DNA from: Bacteroidota bacterium
GTDB taxonomy: Bacteria; Bacteroidota; Ignavibacteria; Ignavibacteriales; Melioribacteraceae
DNA: 33,051 bases
Direction of reading: 5' to 3'
Assembly (NCBI GenBank): GCA_018829545.1
Contig: JAHJTX010000165.1
Coordinates: 1-33,051, forward strand
Under the pieces are notes generated by a model, which saw only the letters and a list, made by a program, of their open reading frames with translations, ran no database searches and was not told where the DNA came from. Positions 8,291-23,946 of the stretch are shown here, one piece after another. Numbering within the stretch: the stretch's first letter is position 1; each line of letters begins with the position of its first letter. A program made the translations under genes and the position numbers.

Positions 8291-10219
8291 TTATTTTTCA
8301 TCATCAACAACTTCATAAGATGCATCTTGAACTTCTTGTTCATCTTTTTTGGATGTGCTCTTCTGTTGAGCATCTTTTGGACCAGAACCGGCTTCAGCGC
8401 CTTGCCCCGGTTGTGTATCCTGCTGTTGATAGATTTGCTGAGAAACTTCACTCCATAATTTGGTCAAGTTTTCAGTTGCAGATTTTATTGCATCAGAATC
8501 GTTTGTTTTTAATGCATCTTCAACTTTTTTGACTTCATCTTCAAGTTTAGCTTTAACGTCAGGAGTAATTTTATCTTTCAATTCTTCAATCTGTTTTCTT
8601 GTTTGAAACACTAAATTATCCGCGCTGTTTCTAATTTCAACAGCTTCTTTTTTCTTTTTATCCTCAGCCGCGTTCTCTTTTGCAGCGTTTTTCATTTTAG
8701 TTATTTCATCTTCATTTAATCCGCTTGACGATGTAATTCTGATACTCTGCTCCTTGTTCGTAGCCTTATCTTTAGCAGCAACGTGAAGAATTCCGTTTGC
8801 GTCAATATCAAAAGTAACTTCAATTTGAGGTAGGCCGCGTGGTGCCGGTGGAATTCCATCTAGGTGAAATCTCCCAAGAGTTCTATTATCGGAAGCCATT
8901 GGTCGTTCGCCCTGAAGAATGTGAATTTCTACCGAAGGCTGATTATCAGCTGCAGTTGAGAAAGTTTCACTTTTCTTTGTTGGAATAGTCGTATTAGCGT
9001 CGATCAATCTTGTCATAACGCTTCCAAGTGTTTCAATACCAAGAGAAAGAGGAGTAACGTCAAGCAATAAAACATCTTTTACATCGCCTGCTAACACTCC
9101 GCCCTGAATAGCTGCTCCAATTGCTACAACTTCGTCCGGGTTAACGCCTCTATGTGGTTCCTTTCCAAAAATTTCTTTAACCTTTTCCTGCACTTTAGGA
9201 ATTCTGGTCGATCCACCGACGAGTATAACTTCATCAATTTGAGAAGCCGAAACTCCGGCATCTTTAATTGCAGATAAGCACGGTGCAATTGTTCTTTCTA
9301 TTAAATCTTCCACTAGTTGTTCAAATTTTGCGCGTGATAGATTAATATTCAAATGCTTCGGTCCATCTTGAGTTGCAGTGATGAATGGTAAATTTACATC
9401 TGTGCTCATCGAAGACGAGAGTTCAATTTTAGCTTTTTCGCCAGCTTCTTTTAATCTCTGTAATGCCATCGGGTCTTTTCTTAAATCAATGCCTTCTGTT
9501 TTCTTGAATTCGTCTGCCAAAAAGTCGATTAGTCTTTGATCGAAATCGTCACCGCCAAGATGTGTATCGCCATTTGTAGATTTAACTTCGAAGACACCGT
9601 CGCCTAATTGCAGAATAGAGATGTCAAAAGTACCGCCGCCTAAATCATAAACCGCAACTAGTTCTTCTTTATTCTTCTTATCAAGCCCATAAGCTAAAGC
9701 AGCGGCAGTTGGTTCGTTAATAATTCTCTTAACAGTTAATCCGGCAATTTCGCCGGCGTCTTTTGTAGCCTGTCTCTGAGAGTCATTAAAATATGCGGGA
9801 ACAGTAACCACCGCTTCGGTTACTTCGTGTCCTAAATATTCTTCGGCTGTTTTTTTCATCTTTTGAAGAATCATTGCGCTGATTTCAGGAGGAGAATATA
9901 GTCTGTCGTTTATTTTAACTCTTGCAGAGTTACTGTCGCCTTTAACAACTGCATAAGGTACTTCGCCAATTTCAGACTCAACCTCATTTATGAATCTACC
10001 CATGAAGCGCTTTATTGAAAATACTGTGTTTTGAGGATTTGTGACCGCCTGTCTCTTTGCAGGCTGACCAACTAATCTTTCACCGCTTTTTGTAAATGCG
10101 ACTACAGAGGGAGTTGTTCTTCCTCCCTCTGAGTTCGGTATAACTACCGGCTCATTTCCTTCCATTACGGAAACGCATGAATTTGTAGTTCCTAAGTCAA
10201 TTCCTATAATTTTACCCAT
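8291..10219 (-). CDS. dnaK: Molecular chaperone DnaK (Hsp70)
   Basis: The 642-residue product matches DnaK over its whole length. The nucleotide-binding domain starts [20 protein letters not shown], with phosphate loops [10 protein letters not shown] (near 195) and [10 protein letters not shown] (near 340). The linker [16 protein letters not shown] follows near 390, then the substrate-binding domain and helical lid, then a Gln/Gly/Ser-rich tail ending YEVVDDEK. It is a cytoplasmic ATP-driven foldase/holdase that normally needs DnaJ and GrpE. Neither gene is here: dnaK is instead sandwiched between two hsp20 genes (50 nt from the first, 23 nt to the second) and seems to be expressed from the sigma-54-type promoter upstream of the first. 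A housekeeping dnaK may exist elsewhere, in which case this is a stress paralogue; the window cannot show that. Confidence 0.98.
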
Positions 10220-10704: not shown

Positions 10705-10745
10705 TTTTGTATCTCCTTTTTTATTGTTAATTTTGCTTAGTTAAT

Positions 10746-10761
10746 TGCAAGCATCGTGCCA
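10746..10761 (-). promoter_or_regulatory. Sigma-54 (-24/-12) promoter of the hsp20-dnaK-hsp20 operon
   Basis: On the minus strand TGGCACGATGCTTGCA (10761 to 10746) is a perfect match to the RpoN consensus TGGCACG-N4-TTGCW, with GG and GC in the required 10-nt spacing. Transcription should start near 10735, leaving a leader of about 30 nt that contains AAGGAG before the ATG at 10704. RpoN promoters need an ATP-driven enhancer-binding protein. No CIRCE element (TTAGCACTC-N9-GAGTGCTAA) or sigma-32-like promoter is visible in this interval. Confidence 0.8.
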
Positions 10762-10825
10762 TTTTATGTTTTTTGTTAACTTATTGTAAATCAAGGACTT
10801 AGAAATATTTCAATTTTTAGTTCAT

Positions 10826-10882
10826 TGACATAGAAGCTGACATAATGGCTTGTTTGTGTATTTATGACATGATTTTTGTCAT
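10826..10882. promoter_or_regulatory. Cluster of TGACA half-sites, candidate enhancer-binding sites
   Basis: TGACATA occurs at 10826-10832 and again at 10838-10844 (12-bp period). An inverted pair ATGACA (10864-10869) and TGTCAT (10877-10882), separated by 7 nt, follows. The cluster is roughly 90-147 bp upstream of the predicted sigma-54 start, the normal distance for bacterial enhancer-binding protein sites. The 3' part also lies close to the birA start, so it could equally regulate birA. The repeats are seen directly; the regulator is unknown. Confidence 0.45.
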
Positions 10883-10911: not shown

Positions 10912-11682
10912 TTGTTCAAAATTGAAGAATTTGATATTAAACTCGATACCGATGTCATCGGACGTAATTTTTATTACTTTGATGAAATCGATTCAACCAA
11001 CTCATATTTATTAGATGAGAGCAATATCAAAATTAATGGCAGCGTAGTTTTAGCAGAAAATCAGCTTAAAGGAAGAGGCAGACGCGACAGAAATTGGACG
11101 TCAGTTAAGGAACAATCTTTAACTTTTTCCATACTACTCAATAGAAATTTGAACGCAAAAAATATTAACATTCTGAACCTAGGCGCTAGTTTAGCTGTTG
11201 CACAAGCAATTGAAAATCTCTATCAACTAGACGTTGAATTGAAATGGCCAAACGATATACTCGTGGGTGGTAAAAAAGTTGCAGGAATTCTTTTAGATGC
11301 AGTTAGCAAGGGCGATAAAATCGAAAAGGTTGTTGTGGGGTTTGGAATCAACGTAAATCAACCAAATTTTACGGGTAAATTTTTAATACCAGCAACATCA
11401 ATAAAATTGGAATTTAAACGCGATTCAAACCGTGAGAGACTCTTGAGCGAAATCTTAAATTTTTTCGAAAGTATTTTGATTCAGATTGATAAAGACAAAT
11501 CAAAAATATTAAGCGATTGGCGAGCGAGATGCAAAATGATTGGCGAAAAAATTAAGATCACAGATTCAAACGGGGAAAAATTCGGCAAATTTGAAGACAT
11601 TGACGATGAAGGGTTTCTGCTTTTTGAATCAAGAGGCATACTAGAAAAAATACATTTCGGCGACGTGAGCATAAGAAGATAA
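10912..11682 (+). CDS. birA: Biotin--[acetyl-CoA-carboxylase] ligase, no HTH domain
   Basis: I place the start at TTG 10912, 5 nt after a strong GGAGG (10902-10906). A TTG at 10876 gives a longer product but adds residues not expected of the family and has no Shine-Dalgarno. The ~256-residue enzyme makes biotinyl-AMP and transfers biotin to the carrier lysine of AccB. Landmarks are DEIDSTNSYL, the adenylate-binding loop GRGRRDRNW (usually GRGRRGR; here Asp replaces the second-last Gly), LKWPNDILVGGKKVAGILLD and VVVGFGINVNQP, with a small C-terminal beta domain after ~210. It lacks the N-terminal winged helix of E. coli BirA, so it is a group I ligase without repressor function. The cysteine desulfurase gene follows 5 nt later; AccD of the same pathway lies just beyond, on the other strand. 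Confidence 0.9.
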   Translation: MFKIEEFDIKLDTDVIGRNFYYFDEIDSTNSYLLDESNIKINGSVVLAENQLKGRGRRDRNWTSVKEQSLTFSILLNRNLNAKNINILNLGASLAVAQAIENLYQLDVELKWPNDILVGGKKVAGILLDAVSKGDKIEKVVVGFGINVNQPNFTGKFLIPATSIKLEFKRDSNRERLLSEILNFFESILIQIDKDKSKILSDWRARCKMIGEKIKITDSNGEKFGKFEDIDDEGFLLFESRGILEKIHFGDVSIRR

Positions 11683-17130: not shown

Positions 17131-20100
17131 TTATTGAATTGTAATCTGAACGTCAAGTCCGGCTTCGTTTGTGGTGGTTTCCGGAATACGCGAAGCGCCT
17201 TCCGGTTTTACGGAAGTTCTTCTGTAAAATAGTGACAGCGTAACTCTTGAACTCATAACATATCTTACTCTCGGCTCTAAAGTAGTTCTAGTTGTTCCGT
17301 CTTGAGGTTTACCTTCTTCTTTAAATCCCTCGCCCATTAAAAAAACGACAACAGAATTCTGCCCGCTCGTAAACGAAAATGAAACTTCGAGATCGTTCTT
17401 TAAAGAAAGCCCAAACAATGGAATATCGAATCCTGATTTAGAGAAACTCGCGGATACATTTATATCCCGCGAGAAGGATTCGGTTATATTTCTTGTGGAG
17501 AGCCCCAAATCATAATTTGTTTTTGTAGAATATTTAATTGAACCGGAAAGATTGCCGCCCCATAATTCTTCGAAAGTTACGTTAACTCCCAACAATGGCG
17601 CAAATCCATAACTAATTTTTTGCGTTTGAATTTCCTGCTCGCCGTCCGTATCAACTTTCCATCCCTCCGAAATATTGGAATTGTAAGCGTGCGTTAAAGA
17701 AACTCTTTTAGCAATGCCCTCAAACAGAGACATTTTTTCTAAGCCCGACCAGTTAATTCTCCAGTTGGGACGGGGAACGTATTTACCAAGCTTATTCAAA
17801 AAAGGAACTTTTGAAAGAAGAGGAAGAGTTTCAAGACCCTCAGCAAATGCGTTTGATAGACTCGTTTGCGGATCATCAGCCAAATGATTGTAGAGTGAGT
17901 TTACATTTTTTAAATCGCTGTTTGCCATCGGTATCGGCAAGCTAAAGAAAGTCCTATCCAAACTACCTGTGGAAGTTCTATTCGTGATTGTTATTTCACC
18001 AGTTGTTGAATCGGTTTTAATTGTTCGGGATTCGTTATATCCCCAGCCGACCTGCCAATTGATGTCTATTGTTGCGCCTTCCCACAACGGACGGGATGTT
18101 TTAAAATCGATGCTGTTCTTCTGAGAGAATTTATCCTGTAACGTTCCGTTCAGCGCACGCGGTCCAATATCAGAACTCAAACCGAGCATATATAATCGTG
18201 ATGGTCCGTTGTCGGTATTCTGCCTAATCCCCCAGAAATTTGAAAAGCCTGTTCCTTCTCCGCGCAAGCCGGAACTGGAGTGAGAATTGCTCTGACTAAA
18301 ATTGAAACTTATTTGTTCATAATCGAAAAGTGCGAATTTTGTTCCGCTCAATAATAAATTGAAAACTTTGCTTAACTGCGATGGACCTTCAAGACTATCG
18401 GATACGGCTCCGGTGCTATCGGTTTTAATACCTTGCTGAGTTGGGTCATTCCCCGGATCTTGATTTGGACTTCTATCAGGTTCTCGTGAACCGCGCCTTC
18501 CTTTATTTGTGGTAGTACTTACCGGAGCGGGCTTATCTTCTCCGAAAAGTGGTGAAAAGAGTGATTTCAATTTTAAATTCATTCCGGCTTTAATTGAGTT
18601 TCCCCAACCTGCGCTTCTTCCAAGTGATTCCTGTTCAAAACTATTCTGCCAATTGTATGAAACGTTGTATCCGGCATTTACGGTAAAATAGCGGTTAATA
18701 TCAAAAATTGTTGGAAGCTTTGGCTGAGTTTTTAGATCAAATGACTGTTTATAATTGTTATCTCTGCCGAAGAAATTTCCGGTTATTATAGCATCCCAAA
18801 TTTCTGATTCAGTCCGCTCAATATCTCCATTCATAAAAAGATGAGCCAATGATGAATTAATATTAATATTATAATTCGTTGACAGATTCAGAAATCCGCC
18901 GTCGGTAATTTTCCAGTTAAAGGAAGCAGTTCTACTAGTTGTAAAACCTCTTTGAACCTGCGGCAGAGCAGTCTTAGTCCTGGATTGAATAAAAGAATAA
19001 TTCCTTTTGGCTGTTATACCGCTGTTAAATGTTTGAGGCGTAAAAAATACCTTTACATTCCTGTAATCTTTTAACAGTTCCAGTAAATCTCCAATAAGCG
19101 GAATATCAACGGGATAAAAGAAATTATCCTGCCCAAGATTAAGAGTGTAATTAATATTTGAGTTCCAAACCCAACTGCTTGAAACAAGAGTAGTGGGATT
19201 TCGTGAAAACGACTTATTGTAATTAAAACCGAATGATAAACTGTTGATAATGTCTCTAATATACCACTCGTTCGAAGGAATTTTGATTTTGATATTAGAA
19301 ACATTCCAAGTGTCGGAAACATTTAGAGTATTCGATTCGCGTATCAAACTATCGGGATTACTGGAAGCCTGCGCTGCCTTGCTTACAAGAACGTCAGTCT
19401 GTGGTTTGTACAACGGCTCACTAATTCCTTCGGAGTGAGAGTAACTTACATTCAAATTGCTGCCCGATAAATTAGCCGGAATTAATTTCAACACATCAAG
19501 ATTTGAAGAAATGCCCCAACTGGTTTGGTTAACCCGCGAACCGAACCGATCTGAAAGTTTATGGAAATACGGATCAGTTTGCTTTAAGTTCACGCTCACG
19601 GTCATCAAATCCGCTAATTTTAATGAAGCGGCAGTTGCATACGCCCAGCCTTCCGTATCTTCCGCGCCAAGCACGCGTAATTCATTTATCCATATTTCGC
19701 CTGAAACCGCTTGACCAAAATCCCCTTTATCAGCCGGATTCACAATACCAATTGTAAAATACGAGACTCTCGTAAGTGTCGGATTTCCCTTGATACCATA
19801 ATAATGATCTAGTTTGCCAGGCACCTTGTCAAAATATAAAGTTGAGATTGTGTCAACATCGCGTCTTTCTTTAATTGCCGTAAGAGCATCGAAAATAATT
19901 TTAATCTCGTTCCAACCGTCTCGGTTGCCTATTGAGTCGTACACAATCGGCTGGCGGTATTCGTAAAAGTTGTTTGTATCCGAACCAAACCTGAAATAGA
20001 TCTCGGCGCCATAATTATTTGGATCTTTGTAATATGAAACCGAACTTGACAGCGGATAATTCTCATCTCCACGGACGAACAGTTTTAATTCGCCATAATT

Positions 20101-23100
20101 GAATAAATCGAGAGGCTTAAATAAATACTTAACAGCTTCACGTTTTTCGCCGTCTTTCAAATCATTAATTTTTACTTGCAGAGACTGCTCATTTTTGAAA
20201 ACTTCTTGATCAGGCTTGCTCCGGTCTCTTTCTCTATTAACTCCCGGCGGACTTACATATTCCGGATTATCTTCAATGTTAATTGTAGAAAGCGTCATCA
20301 CAGAATCTTGATTATCCGCAGTTAACTTCTGCCATTGATTGCCAACAAGATTCAAATCTGCCAACCTTAAATGAACAGTGTCCTCAACTCCCGAAATCCA
20401 AATTCTCATAAATTCAATAACCGCAAAACTGGGATTACCAATTGTAGATGTGAACTCTTTCAAAGGAATTCTGAATTGATACCATTTTTCTGAAGTGCTT
20501 CCACCCCCGGAAATAAAGGGGTTCATATTTCTGCTGGTGTCCATCGAAATTTCATAACGGAAGTAACTGTCGAGTCTATCAAGCGTAAAGTTTCTGTTTA
20601 AGTCCTCTGAATCGGGGAAGCGCCCGATATCCGTCAAAGCGGCATTGCCCTCTGTTCCATTTATATTCAAATAATCATTTCGGTTATCCGAAGCGCTTGT
20701 AAATTTAAAATTATCCCCGTTTGGATCCGGATTCGAAGCCGAGTTGTAATCTGGCTCATTAATATCTTTTAAACCGTCAATACCGGTGTCCTCTCCTTCA
20801 TCCACGTTATCGTTGCCGTTATTATCTTCCTTGTCAAGACGACCATTCGGAATAACATCCTCATTAATTTGACCGATATCGATATTGATTTTAGCGCCGT
20901 CCGGAGCTTCAACAATTTTCATCCAAAATTCTATGAATTCAATATTTTCTTCAATTAAATTGTTTGCCGTGGAAGATAGAACGCGCATCATTCCGCCCCA
21001 GTTTTGTGCGGGGAATGAAAGCAGAGCGGGATTATTATTGTACATCCCTCTCATCGTGGGATAGTAAACAAAATCAAGAACAGTTACCTGCTGATCCTCG
21101 CGGGCAACTAGTTTATTAGGCCAGATATGAGAGACATTCACGTCGGAAGGTAAGAAGTTGTACCAAAAGGCTTTTCCTTTGTATCTCATTTGAGTTACGG
21201 GATCGAACCCGCCGATAAAGGGAAGATTATTAGGCACGGAAAGATCCCGCCAGCCAGCATAGGAAACACCGATTGGAATAATTCTTTTTGACCCTTCAAA
21301 ATCATCGATGTAAGCTATACTCTGATTTCCATCGCTCTTGATTGTACTTTTCTTCGTGTTGGGATCAGGATTGATATATGCGAATTCTCCTTTCAGATTG
21401 AAGGATGAAGCCGCTCTTGTAGAGATAAGATAATCCAAACCGGTGGTTATAAAGGGCATCTCAACCGTAGTCTCAAAATCCAAACCATATATTGAGTTGC
21501 TAATCGGCTCTTCGCCGATTCTAACTTTATCGCTGAGCGTTTTCTGATTCAAATTTAAAAACGAGAACCCCAGTTTAGTGGTTTTATTGAACTCATAAAC
21601 ACCGCGCAGCCCCAGCAATGTTTTTGATGCTAATTGAAATAAATCATTTTGTTCGTAAGAAATTTTTAAATTTGCGCCTGGAACTAGAGCGGCATCGTTC
21701 TTTATTGTTACCCGACCGATATTGTAATCTACGTTATAATCAATTCCCTCTTTCAATTCTCTTCCGTCAAGAGTAACTCTAACCGAATTTTCAACGACAT
21801 TAAAACCTATAGGATAATCCGCACGAACTTCCGCTGAATATTCACCGACAATTAGAAATTTATCCAGTTCCTTTTTTTGCCGCGCAAAAGTTTTAGTGGT
21901 ATCGTATACATCCGGGAATTTTAGATCGTCCGGCAGCGGGAATGGGAGATCGCTTCCGAACGGTTCAAGCGTTGGGAAAATGATTTCACCATTAGTCGGA
22001 ATTATTGTTCTGCCCGGATTAAAGTCAAAAACGCCATCCGGAAATTCCCCCCCGCTTGCATCTGTTCTATCTAATTTGAAAAGTTCAAGTAATTGTCTGC
22101 CTTCAAAATCGTTTAGAGGATCAGAACCTTCATTTCTATATAGAATGTCAAGCGTGAATCCATCCTGTTTAACTTCTCTTCCGCCGATAGGATAAATATT
22201 TTTTAACTGCAGTTTCCATGCAATTTTATATTCAGGCTTAAGGTAAGGGGGCTTAATAAGTTTTAAAATTAATATTTTATTTTCATCTGTAATATCTTTA
22301 TCAAATTCACCAATGTACAAATCGTCTTCGGGACTAGGAGAATCACCATCAATTCTATATGATACCGCTATTGCGTCCTGCTCCTGAATTGGAGAAGTAA
22401 AACTTATAAAACCGGTATACTCCTGATAAATGTAATCCAAACCTCCAGTTAGTTTAAGGAACCTTCCTTTAATAATCGATTCTCCGTTGACCGGATTTTT
22501 TGTACTGTCCCGCAAGGATTCGTCATACTTTAGAGATTTAGGAAGACCTTGCAGATTGATATAAGCATTTCCTTTTCTCTCATTAGGATTTACAATCGCT
22601 GATGTAGTCTTCCAAACTTCAACCTCTCTAACGAAATATCTTTCTGATTCCGTAGTTGGCTGAAATACAAAATTGCCGTAGAATCTATTAAACAAGTCTA
22701 ATTTTTTACTTGCATAAATTGTATCAAGAAAATAGTTATTGATTGAATAATCGTAAGCGTGAATTTCGAATGTAGATTTTTTTGAACCTCCGCTTATGCT
22801 TACCTCCTGAATTTCGCCTTTCTTTTGAGAAGCTAGTGCGGTTAATGTTAAAGGTCCCATTTTGAATTGAGACTTGATGCCGAATAAAGCTTCGCTGCCG
22901 CCAACTAGCGGTGATGTTTGAAGCGACACGTTTCCCGCTTCAACGCTTTGTACAATTTCGTCCTCGTAACCCTTATAATTTATTTTGAGCTCATTTTCAT
23001 ATTCGAAAGTCCGCTCTGTGTTCCAGTCGGCATTAATTGTAAGTTTATCGCCAATTGTTCCGTTAACGCTAATTTGAACCTGCTGGCTAAAATCCGGTTC

Positions 23101-23946
23101 ATTCCGCGTATTTCCTAAAGCAGAAGCTGTAAGTCCTTCGGTAGTTTCGTTTCTCCAGGCTCCGTGAATATCAACCGCTCCGTTAATTCTTAGCTTAATT
23201 ACGTTTGGTCCAAAAATACTTAGAAACGAAGTGCTAGGCAAAGGAATTTCTATGTTCGTAATATCTTTTAGTAAAGAACTTAGGTCATCTTTAGATGCAG
23301 CTATTTCGTATTTATATCCTTGCTCTTCCCATAGCTGCCTGTTGTTTGCTTTTATTTTTAGATCAATATATTCTTCAAGACGCATTTTGAGAAATATTTT
23401 TTCGGCGCCGTCTCCAAGAGATTCTTTAATAATTACAAATTGACCCGTTGAATCTAACTCGACTGTTTTTTTGTAGTGCTGTTTGCCTGGAGCAGCGAAA
23501 AATCCGGAAGTTTTTTTATCCCCCACATTAGTTACCGGCGAATCGCTTCGTTGATATCTAAATTGACTAATCCTTCCCGTGGAATCAATCGCCATCGAAT
23601 CTACTTTTGTAGTATCAACTAAAATTGAATCCGCCAATGGATTGTTCACAGAAAGCGAGTCCAGGCTATCTGCGAATAGATTATTCTCCGAGAGTGAATT
23701 GAGGCTATCAGCGAAAGTTGAATCTGAAAAGCTGCGATACGATTCATTAAACTCTTGCTTAAGCCATGAAAGTTCTTCAATGCTTTCAATATTAGTATTT
23801 TGTGAATGATTATTCTGCTGCCCGGAAAGAATATTGGTTTGTTTTTCAATTAAGGTAAAACCTAATGAAGCAACAATCAGAATGAAGGCTAACGTAAAAA
23901 TAAATTTTTTGTTCGTTTTCAGCCCTTTTCGACTAGTTTTACGCAG
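17131..23946 (-). CDS. sprA: SprA/Sov-type T9SS outer-membrane translocon (gliding motility SprA family)
   Basis: Read from a GTG at 23649 the protein has 2172 residues and no signal peptide. The same frame stays open to a TAA at 23983-23985. The upstream part encodes MRKTSRKGLKTNKKFIFTLA then FILIVASLGF, a typical export signal, and a repeat (FADSLNSLSENN, FADSLDSLSVNN, LADSIL) that runs across the GTG. No ATG, GTG or TTG is in frame upstream. A CTG at 23946 lies 4 nt after GAGGA (23951-23955), so I call a 2271-residue protein from that CTG. SprA forms a giant 36-strand outer-membrane barrel through which T9SS cargo leaves the periplasm. Matching features are repeated beta-strand segments with aromatic ends, the N-terminal GPNVIKLRINGAVDIHGAWR block, DPNTKKSTIKSDGNQSIAYIDDFEGSKR mid-protein region and a C-terminal barrel strand ending VQITIQ. 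The porX gene follows. Confidence 0.93.
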   Translation of the reverse strand: MRKTSRKGLKTNKKFIFTLAFILIVASLGFTLIEKQTNILSGQQNNHSQNTNIESIEELSWLKQEFNESYRSFSDSTFADSLNSLSENNLFADSLDSLSVNNPLADSILVDTTKVDSMAIDSTGRISQFRYQRSDSPVTNVGDKKTSGFFAAPGKQHYKKTVELDSTGQFVIIKESLGDGAEKIFLKMRLEEYIDLKIKANNRQLWEEQGYKYEIAASKDDLSSLLKDITNIEIPLPSTSFLSIFGPNVIKLRINGAVDIHGAWRNETTEGLTASALGNTRNEPDFSQQVQISVNGTIGDKLTINADWNTERTFEYENELKINYKGYEDEIVQSVEAGNVSLQTSPLVGGSEALFGIKSQFKMGPLTLTALASQKKGEIQEVSISGGSKKSTFEIHAYDYSINNYFLDTIYASKKLDLFNRFYGNFVFQPTTESERYFVREVEVWKTTSAIVNPNERKGNAYINLQGLPKSLKYDESLRDSTKNPVNGESIIKGRFLKLTGGLDYIYQEYTGFISFTSPIQEQDAIAVSYRIDGDSPSPEDDLYIGEFDKDITDENKILILKLIKPPYLKPEYKIAWKLQLKNIYPIGGREVKQDGFTLDILYRNEGSDPLNDFEGRQLLELFKLDRTDASGGEFPDGVFDFNPGRTIIPTNGEIIFPTLEPFGSDLPFPLPDDLKFPDVYDTTKTFARQKKELDKFLIVGEYSAEVRADYPIGFNVVENSVRVTLDGRELKEGIDYNVDYNIGRVTIKNDAALVPGANLKISYEQNDLFQLASKTLLGLRGVYEFNKTTKLGFSFLNLNQKTLSDKVRIGEEPISNSIYGLDFETTVEMPFITTGLDYLISTRAASSFNLKGEFAYINPDPNTKKSTIKSDGNQSIAYIDDFEGSKRIIPIGVSYAGWRDLSVPNNLPFIGGFDPVTQMRYKGKAFWYNFLPSDVNVSHIWPNKLVAREDQQVTVLDFVYYPTMRGMYNNNPALLSFPAQNWGGMMRVLSSTANNLIEENIEFIEFWMKIVEAPDGAKINIDIGQINEDVIPNGRLDKEDNNGNDNVDEGEDTGIDGLKDINEPDYNSASNPDPNGDNFKFTSASDNRNDYLNINGTEGNAALTDIGRFPDSEDLNRNFTLDRLDSYFRYEISMDTSRNMNPFISGGGSTSEKWYQFRIPLKEFTSTIGNPSFAVIEFMRIWISGVEDTVHLRLADLNLVGNQWQKLTADNQDSVMTLSTINIEDNPEYVSPPGVNRERDRSKPDQEVFKNEQSLQVKINDLKDGEKREAVKYLFKPLDLFNYGELKLFVRGDENYPLSSSVSYYKDPNNYGAEIYFRFGSDTNNFYEYRQPIVYDSIGNRDGWNEIKIIFDALTAIKERRDVDTISTLYFDKVPGKLDHYYGIKGNPTLTRVSYFTIGIVNPADKGDFGQAVSGEIWINELRVLGAEDTEGWAYATAASLKLADLMTVSVNLKQTDPYFHKLSDRFGSRVNQTSWGISSNLDVLKLIPANLSGSNLNVSYSHSEGISEPLYKPQTDVLVSKAAQASSNPDSLIRESNTLNVSDTWNVSNIKIKIPSNEWYIRDIINSLSFGFNYNKSFSRNPTTLVSSSWVWNSNINYTLNLGQDNFFYPVDIPLIGDLLELLKDYRNVKVFFTPQTFNSGITAKRNYSFIQSRTKTALPQVQRGFTTSRTASFNWKITDGGFLNLSTNYNININSSLAHLFMNGDIERTESEIWDAIITGNFFGRDNNYKQSFDLKTQPKLPTIFDINRYFTVNAGYNVSYNWQNSFEQESLGRSAGWGNSIKAGMNLKLKSLFSPLFGEDKPAPVSTTTNKGRRGSREPDRSPNQDPGNDPTQQGIKTDSTGAVSDSLEGPSQLSKVFNLLLSGTKFALFDYEQISFNFSQSNSHSSSGLRGEGTGFSNFWGIRQNTDNGPSRLYMLGLSSDIGPRALNGTLQDKFSQKNSIDFKTSRPLWEGATIDINWQVGWGYNESRTIKTDSTTGEITITNRTSTGSLDRTFFSLPIPMANSDLKNVNSLYNHLADDPQTSLSNAFAEGLETLPLLSKVPFLNKLGKYVPRPNWRINWSGLEKMSLFEGIAKRVSLTHAYNSNISEGWKVDTDGEQEIQTQKISYGFAPLLGVNVTFEELWGGNLSGSIKYSTKTNYDLGLSTRNITESFSRDINVSASFSKSGFDIPLFGLSLKNDLEVSFSFTSGQNSVVVFLMGEGFKEEGKPQDGTTRTTLEPRVRYVMSSRVTLSLFYRRTSVKPEGASRIPETTTNEAGLDVQITIQ

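Follow-up and report, generated by a model that had tools for sequence, protein, structure and literature searches.

A predicted sigma-54 promoter with enhancer-like sites at the hsp20-dnaK-hsp20 operon of Melioribacteraceae

Introduction

Which control system switches on the hsp20-dnaK-hsp20 operon of a Melioribacteraceae bacterium, and by what kind of promoter? A preliminary description of this DNA had proposed a sigma-54 (RpoN) promoter and implied that such control of chaperone genes is exceptional. That implication does not stand, as sigma-54 control of chaperones has already been described in Bacteroidota. In Flavobacterium psychrophilum, one report gives mapped sigma-54-class (SM4) promoters at dnaK, groESL, grpE-dnaJ, htpG, lon and clpB (PMC9723704). 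Another describes computed sigma-54 regulons, with promoters enriched at the IbpA, GroESL, GrpE, DnaJ and DnaK genes in Bacteroidota and Planctomycetota (PMC12316311). A search of the literature on RpoN, heat shock and dnaK in Ignavibacteria returned no paper.

Results

The operon and its neighbourhood

The window, meaning the whole stretch of 33,051 nucleotides that was analyzed, is contig C126 of a 4.1 Mb genome that is 98.6% complete. The three operon genes were found in the order first described (Table 1), and neither grpE nor dnaJ is among them; an hrcA-grpE-dnaJ cluster was found on contig C97 instead. A search of the genome for a second dnaK returned none, the one other HSP70-family match being weak and partial. 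The two intact Hsp20 genes of the genome both lie in this operon. A weak Hsp20-family match at G000:C280:3414-3644 is broken by three stop codons; it may be the remains of a gene or have arisen by chance. The operon architecture had been called unusual, but hsp20-dnaK-hsp20 is the usual order within Melioribacteraceae. The divergent birA-type neighbour is also present in relatives, and its start codon was set by comparison with them. Elsewhere in the window, positions 17131-23649 encode a secreted-type protein of 2172 aa that gives the impression of resembling SprA-like gliding/T9SS proteins.

Table 1. Features of the operon and its upstream region, in window coordinates
Feature	Position	Strand	Basis or remark
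-24/-12 element TGGCACGATGCTTGCA, predicted sigma-54 promoter	10746..10761	-	12/12 match, once in genome; kept in 30/30 family loci
Predicted transcription start, CA step, 12 nt downstream of -12	10734..10735	-	C and A each kept in 23/30 family loci
Symmetric box TAAGTCCTTGATTTACAATAAGTTA (minus strand), centre ~-54, possible HU/IHF-type bending site	10777..10801	.	Family consensus
Promoter-proximal enhancer half TGTCAGCTTCTATGTCA (minus strand), centre -99, putative	10826..10842	.	TGNCA-N7-TGNCA
Promoter-distal enhancer site TGACAAAAATCATGTCA (minus strand), centre -138, putative	10865..10881	.	TGNCA-N7-TGNCA
hsp20, operon gene 1, 144 aa	10270..10704	-	Pfam PF00011, E 1.4e-25
dnaK, 642 aa, the genome's only full HSP70	8291..10219	-	NCBIfam NF001413/TIGR02350 above cut-off; genome search
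Second hsp20, differs from the first, 131 aa	7872..8267	-	Pfam PF00011, E 4.3e-19
birA-type biotin protein ligase, divergent; far edge of regulatory region	10913..11682	+	TIGR00121 above cut-off

A conserved -24/-12 element

The match to the RpoN consensus that had been claimed is exact: the element fits TGGCACG-N4-TTGCW (TGGCACGNNNNTTGCW) at all 12 specified positions. This pattern has exactly one match in the genome, compared to 0.4 expected from base composition (0.003 for the window). The form TGGCACN5TTGCW occurs twice in the genome and its reversed control not at all. The distance from the element to the hsp20 ATG (10704) measures 41 nt, not the 42 nt first given. The genome encodes rpoN once, and a search for activator domains gave 23 PF00158 matches, approximately 18 of them full-length and strong.

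Conservation of the element in relatives was assessed in orthologous loci that had been collected without use of the motif. An Hsp20 protein search alone over 57 family genomes led to 30 fetched loci, one per genome; some gene names in relatives were assigned by eye from sequence. Every one of these loci has TGGYRY-N5-TTR upstream of the start codon, at a distance of 32 to 65 nt. A locus of the cultured relative Stygiobacter electus (L069) has the -24/-12 element. Sigma-54 scores of at least 10/12 were reached in 20 of the 30 loci as compared to 9 of 9000 shuffles. The TGG of the -24 and the TT of the -12 are invariant and the G that follows is kept in 28/30, while the C of the -12 GC is replaced by T (GT) in most relatives. 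Among more distant hsp20 loci, 5 of 32 carry an element of at least 10/12, where 0.18 would be expected.

Tandem TGNCA sites upstream of the promoter

Two TGNCA-N7-TGNCA palindromes lie 39 bp apart upstream of the element. Sigma-54 activators usually bind 100-150 bp upstream (PMC7057263), and the position of the pair, at -99 and -138, agrees with this and was counted in favor of an enhancer role. The same words are strongly enriched across the family: the 45 hsp20 promoters compared hold 14 palindromes (0.15 expected from shuffles) and 129 TGNCA words (31 expected), and 40 of them have at least two such words (6.9 expected). Full palindromes are present in only 9/45, the rest having single words or variants. 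Nine dnaK promoters that have no hsp20 in front contain 25 TGNCA words compared to 6.3 expected. However, birA-like sequence upstream of these nine suggests common descent, and the enrichment there is therefore read as retention rather than as independent evidence.

Three distant hsp20 genes, from Ignavibacteriales and a Neomarinimicrobiota MAG (L134, L135 and L106), have sigma-54 elements of 10-11/12 with TGNCA words upstream, and the enhancer may therefore predate Melioribacteraceae. No full TGNCA-N7-TGNCA was present in 27 promoters of the Dps-like, SPW and secreted classes. The enhancer-region repeats seen by eye in those classes are ACGAAATATCGT at Dps, GTGAAATTT-N-ATTTCAC at SPW and TGCCAC/GTGGCA in one secreted class.

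A symmetric box at a fixed distance from the -24

Between the TGNCA sites and the promoter lies a symmetric box. From an alignment of upstream regions, its family consensus is a 25 bp inverted repeat, TAACTTATT-N7-AATAAGTTA. One arm is degenerate in the window, and the skeleton TAA-N4-TT-N7-AA-N4-TTA is intact. Of 74 promoters, 72 have 14-18 bp between box and -24 and two have 30-31 bp. Inverted repeats with at most 2 mismatches number 83 over the 57 genomes, compared to 11 for the reversed pattern. Read from the centre, each half is W-A/T-Y-AA-N4-TTA, in which AA and TTA hardly vary and the four inner bases are less conserved.

A distance of 9 bp separates the AA step of one half from that of the other. 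The two kinks in DNA bound by IHF, whose consensus is WATCARNNNNTTR, are also 9 bp apart (PMC8421141), a comparison that assumes a kink on the AA step of the box. IHF often assists looping at sigma-54 promoters (PMC7057263), and a homodimeric HU/IHF-family protein might favor a box of this form. In one relative (L214), an HU/IHF-family gene has a box 69 nt upstream.

The box also occurs apart from this operon. Ferritin/Dps-like genes in L144, L145 and L158 have box and sigma-54 element, and they adjoin an activator gene of their own class or are transcribed divergently from one; the ACGAAATATCGT-like repeats at these loci are a probable enhancer. Genes for SPW-repeat membrane proteins in L146, L151, L155 and L163 likewise have both and lie near receiver-type activators, with GTGAAATTT-N-ATTTCAC-like repeats. 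Upstream of malQ, of an HU gene and, in five genomes (L268, L287, L288, L289 and L290), of a gene read from its sequence as mnmE, the box is present with no sigma-54 element; in L268 it lies between mnmE and a divergent clpB/clpC-like gene and is common to both. Four basal relatives keep the sigma-54 element and have no box. The idea that the box belongs to every sigma-54 promoter of the family was rejected, as strict promoter-like TGGCACGNNNNTTGCW sites are mostly without it.

Distribution of the composite promoter

A composite model of box and -24/-12 element (R1) was built on 39 promoters and run over the 57 genomes. These searches are partly circular for the loci that built the model, and the E-values are too low for AT-rich genomes, with 46 matches at E <=1 in the bacterium's own genome. 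Within these limits, a composite promoter is present at most 300 bp upstream of hsp20 in 45/57 genomes, and in 48/57 when dnaK promoters are included; the remaining 9/57 have no composite match at hsp20 or dnaK. In six genomes where hsp20 and dnaK lie apart, the promoter was found at both. Four relatives (L101, L102, L104 and L105) have at least three hsp20-type genes and no dnaK behind the same promoter. Other family genes with an R1 promoter upstream include ferritin/Dps-like, SPW-repeat and several secreted-protein genes, the first two assignments having Pfam support from one example each.

A candidate activator

No activator gene lies beside the hsp20 operons of the family. The best candidate is encoded on contig C236, where a 368 aa protein with a sigma-54 interaction domain and a Fis-type HTH only is followed by lptE; a gene that looks like miaB lies a few genes upstream of it. 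It resembles PspF-type stand-alone activators in this domain content, with no sensor domain, and differs from them in having miaB and lptE as neighbours and no identified PspA-like partner. In the F. psychrophilum report, a regulator-LptE pair (THC0290_0733-0732) lies a few locus tags from groES-groEL (0729-0728) (PMC9723704); by analogy, this is a circumstantial pointer to the C236 protein. When the genome's activator genes and their 1.5 kb flanks were scanned for TGNCA-N7-TGNCA, the sole match was at L026, a weak PF00158 hit. This match is not at a full activator, so autoregulation did not reveal the activator. That this stand-alone AAA+-Fis protein, encoded in a miaB...lptE cluster, controls the operon is possible, and we put it forward tentatively.

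Discussion

Alternative readings of the upstream region

Control by HrcA/CIRCE or by a sigma-32-like factor, with the -24/-12 match an accident, is the alternative that classic heat-shock regulation would suggest. HrcA is indeed encoded here and in 27 of the 28 family genomes searched. However, the only CIRCE of the genome is a perfect one (TTAGCACTC-N9-GAGTGCTAA) 27 nt upstream of groES, at the groES-groEL locus G000:C111 (L324), and a CIRCE at groES is also present in most relatives inspected. The operon itself has none, as the preliminary description had stated, and neither do the hsp20 and dnaK sites inspected in relatives. With the single CIRCE at groESL, HrcA does not explain the operon, and CIRCE control of it was rejected on this ground. 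Conservation of the -24/-12 element in 30/30 loci speaks against an accidental match, and this alternative as a whole is highly improbable. At hrcA in this genome there is no CIRCE within 4 mismatches and no sigma-54 element nearby, and a sigma-54 element sought at hrcA-grpE-dnaJ was not found. A second alternative would keep sigma-54 for the stress-induced part of expression only and have an unrecognized sigmaA promoter supply basal DnaK. A cell with a single dnaK could be expected to require its basal expression, and the lack of a visible basal promoter is surprising and was counted against the sigma-54 reading. Single TAnnTTTG boxes occur in these upstream regions at about chance level, which leaves room for weak promoters. 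Against this, the sigmaA-type pattern TTG-N17-22-TAnnTTTG is present in none of 40 hsp20 upstream regions and in 1 of 34 dnaK upstream regions, compared to 0.14 expected. A basal sigmaA promoter is thus conceivable and deserves weight, though we lean away from it.

The box raises separate questions. Being palindromic, strongly conserved, at a fixed distance from the -24 and common to one gene set, it could itself be the activator's site, in place of the TGNCA pair; one activator, binding unusually close to the promoter, would then serve the hsp20, dnaK, Dps-like and SPW genes. However, the activators beside the box promoters at Dps, SPW and secreted genes belong to several classes whose helix-turn-helix domains differ, and further upstream the gene classes each have repeats of their own. 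The box also occurs without a sigma-54 element, for example at mnmE, and the basal relatives keep the element without the box. This reading is unlikely and was set aside as the main one. A box common to the promoters of several other activators with other enhancers is probably an accessory site, and the simplest reading of the sequences is that the TGNCA sites would be one activator's enhancer and the box a common accessory site. What would bind there is less clear-cut. A dedicated repressor or global transcription factor would fit the boxes at mnmE, malQ and the HU gene. By contrast, each half can be read as the IHF core W-A-Y-AA-N4-TTA, at the 9 bp spacing of the IHF values (PMC8421141), and the box sits between enhancer and promoter. 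A repressor or global factor is a serious contender, short of an even chance, and a bending site in the promoter is close to an even proposition.

The proposed promoter and its mechanism

The RpoN reading of the preliminary description is backed at the sequence level by rpoN and activator genes, a family-wide element, enhancer-like sites, and the lack of a CIRCE or sigmaA-like promoter. We consider it very likely that the promoter depends on sigma-54 and that the TGNCA sites serve as its enhancer; an ATP-driven activator, and not the classic heat-shock factors, probably switches the operon on. Weighing against this reading are the GT in place of the -12 GC in most relatives, the 9/57 genomes with no composite match, the full palindromes in only 9/45 promoters, and an activator gene that is not beside the operon. 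In the proposed mechanism, an enhancer-dependent sigma-54 promoter would drive the three-gene chaperone operon, and an activator of the NtrC/PspF kind would bind the tandem TGNCA sites. DNA bending, for which an HU/IHF-family protein at the symmetric box may be responsible, would bring the AAA+ ring near, and the ring would open the waiting RpoN polymerase. Protein-folding stress is the natural guess for the inducing signal, and the C236 protein may, on slender grounds, be the activator. HrcA/CIRCE would be kept for groESL only; the family would appear to divide its chaperones, with HrcA for groESL and RpoN for dnaK and hsp20.

Comparison with known systems

The F. psychrophilum report shares with the present case chaperone genes, dnaK included, behind -24/-12 elements in a Bacteroidota-group bacterium, and a sigma-54 regulator gene adjoining lptE (PMC9723704). 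Its sigma-54 set includes groESL and grpE-dnaJ, whereas groESL has a CIRCE here; here dnaK lies inside an hsp20-dnaK-hsp20 operon, and the available part of that report describes no tandem enhancer or symmetric box. The computed regulons likewise place predicted sigma-54 promoters at chaperone genes including DnaK, although the available part of that source does not name Ignavibacteria and describes no operon, enhancer or accessory site (PMC12316311). IHF-assisted sigma-54 promoters have an enhancer at approximately -100 to -140 and, as presumed here, a bending site between enhancer and promoter (PMC7057263); the IHF consensus is asymmetric, whereas the box combines two half-sites symmetrically and at fixed spacing.

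In Melioribacteraceae, what appears to be new, as read from the sequences, is a conserved promoter for an hsp20-dnaK-hsp20 operon that contains the sole dnaK, together with the apparent division of labour with HrcA, the putative tandem enhancer, and the symmetric box common to several activator circuits. A broader proposition is offered with reserve: that Melioribacteraceae may place an HU/IHF-type bending box, symmetric and at fixed distance, in a class of sigma-54 promoters serving at least four activator circuits (chaperones, Dps-like, SPW-repeat and secreted) with differing enhancers, and that their sole DnaK may be reachable only by an enhancer-dependent route.

If the proposed control is true, the main Hsp70 of a whole family would depend on an ATP-driven activator and not on a heat-shock sigma factor or the HrcA repressor. 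The response would be split over two systems, HrcA acting on groESL and RpoN on dnaK and hsp20. A modular promoter of variable enhancer, constant box and constant -24/-12 would show which activator controls which gene, a reading that would serve the mostly uncultured Ignavibacteriales, among them the likewise mostly uncultured Melioribacteraceae.
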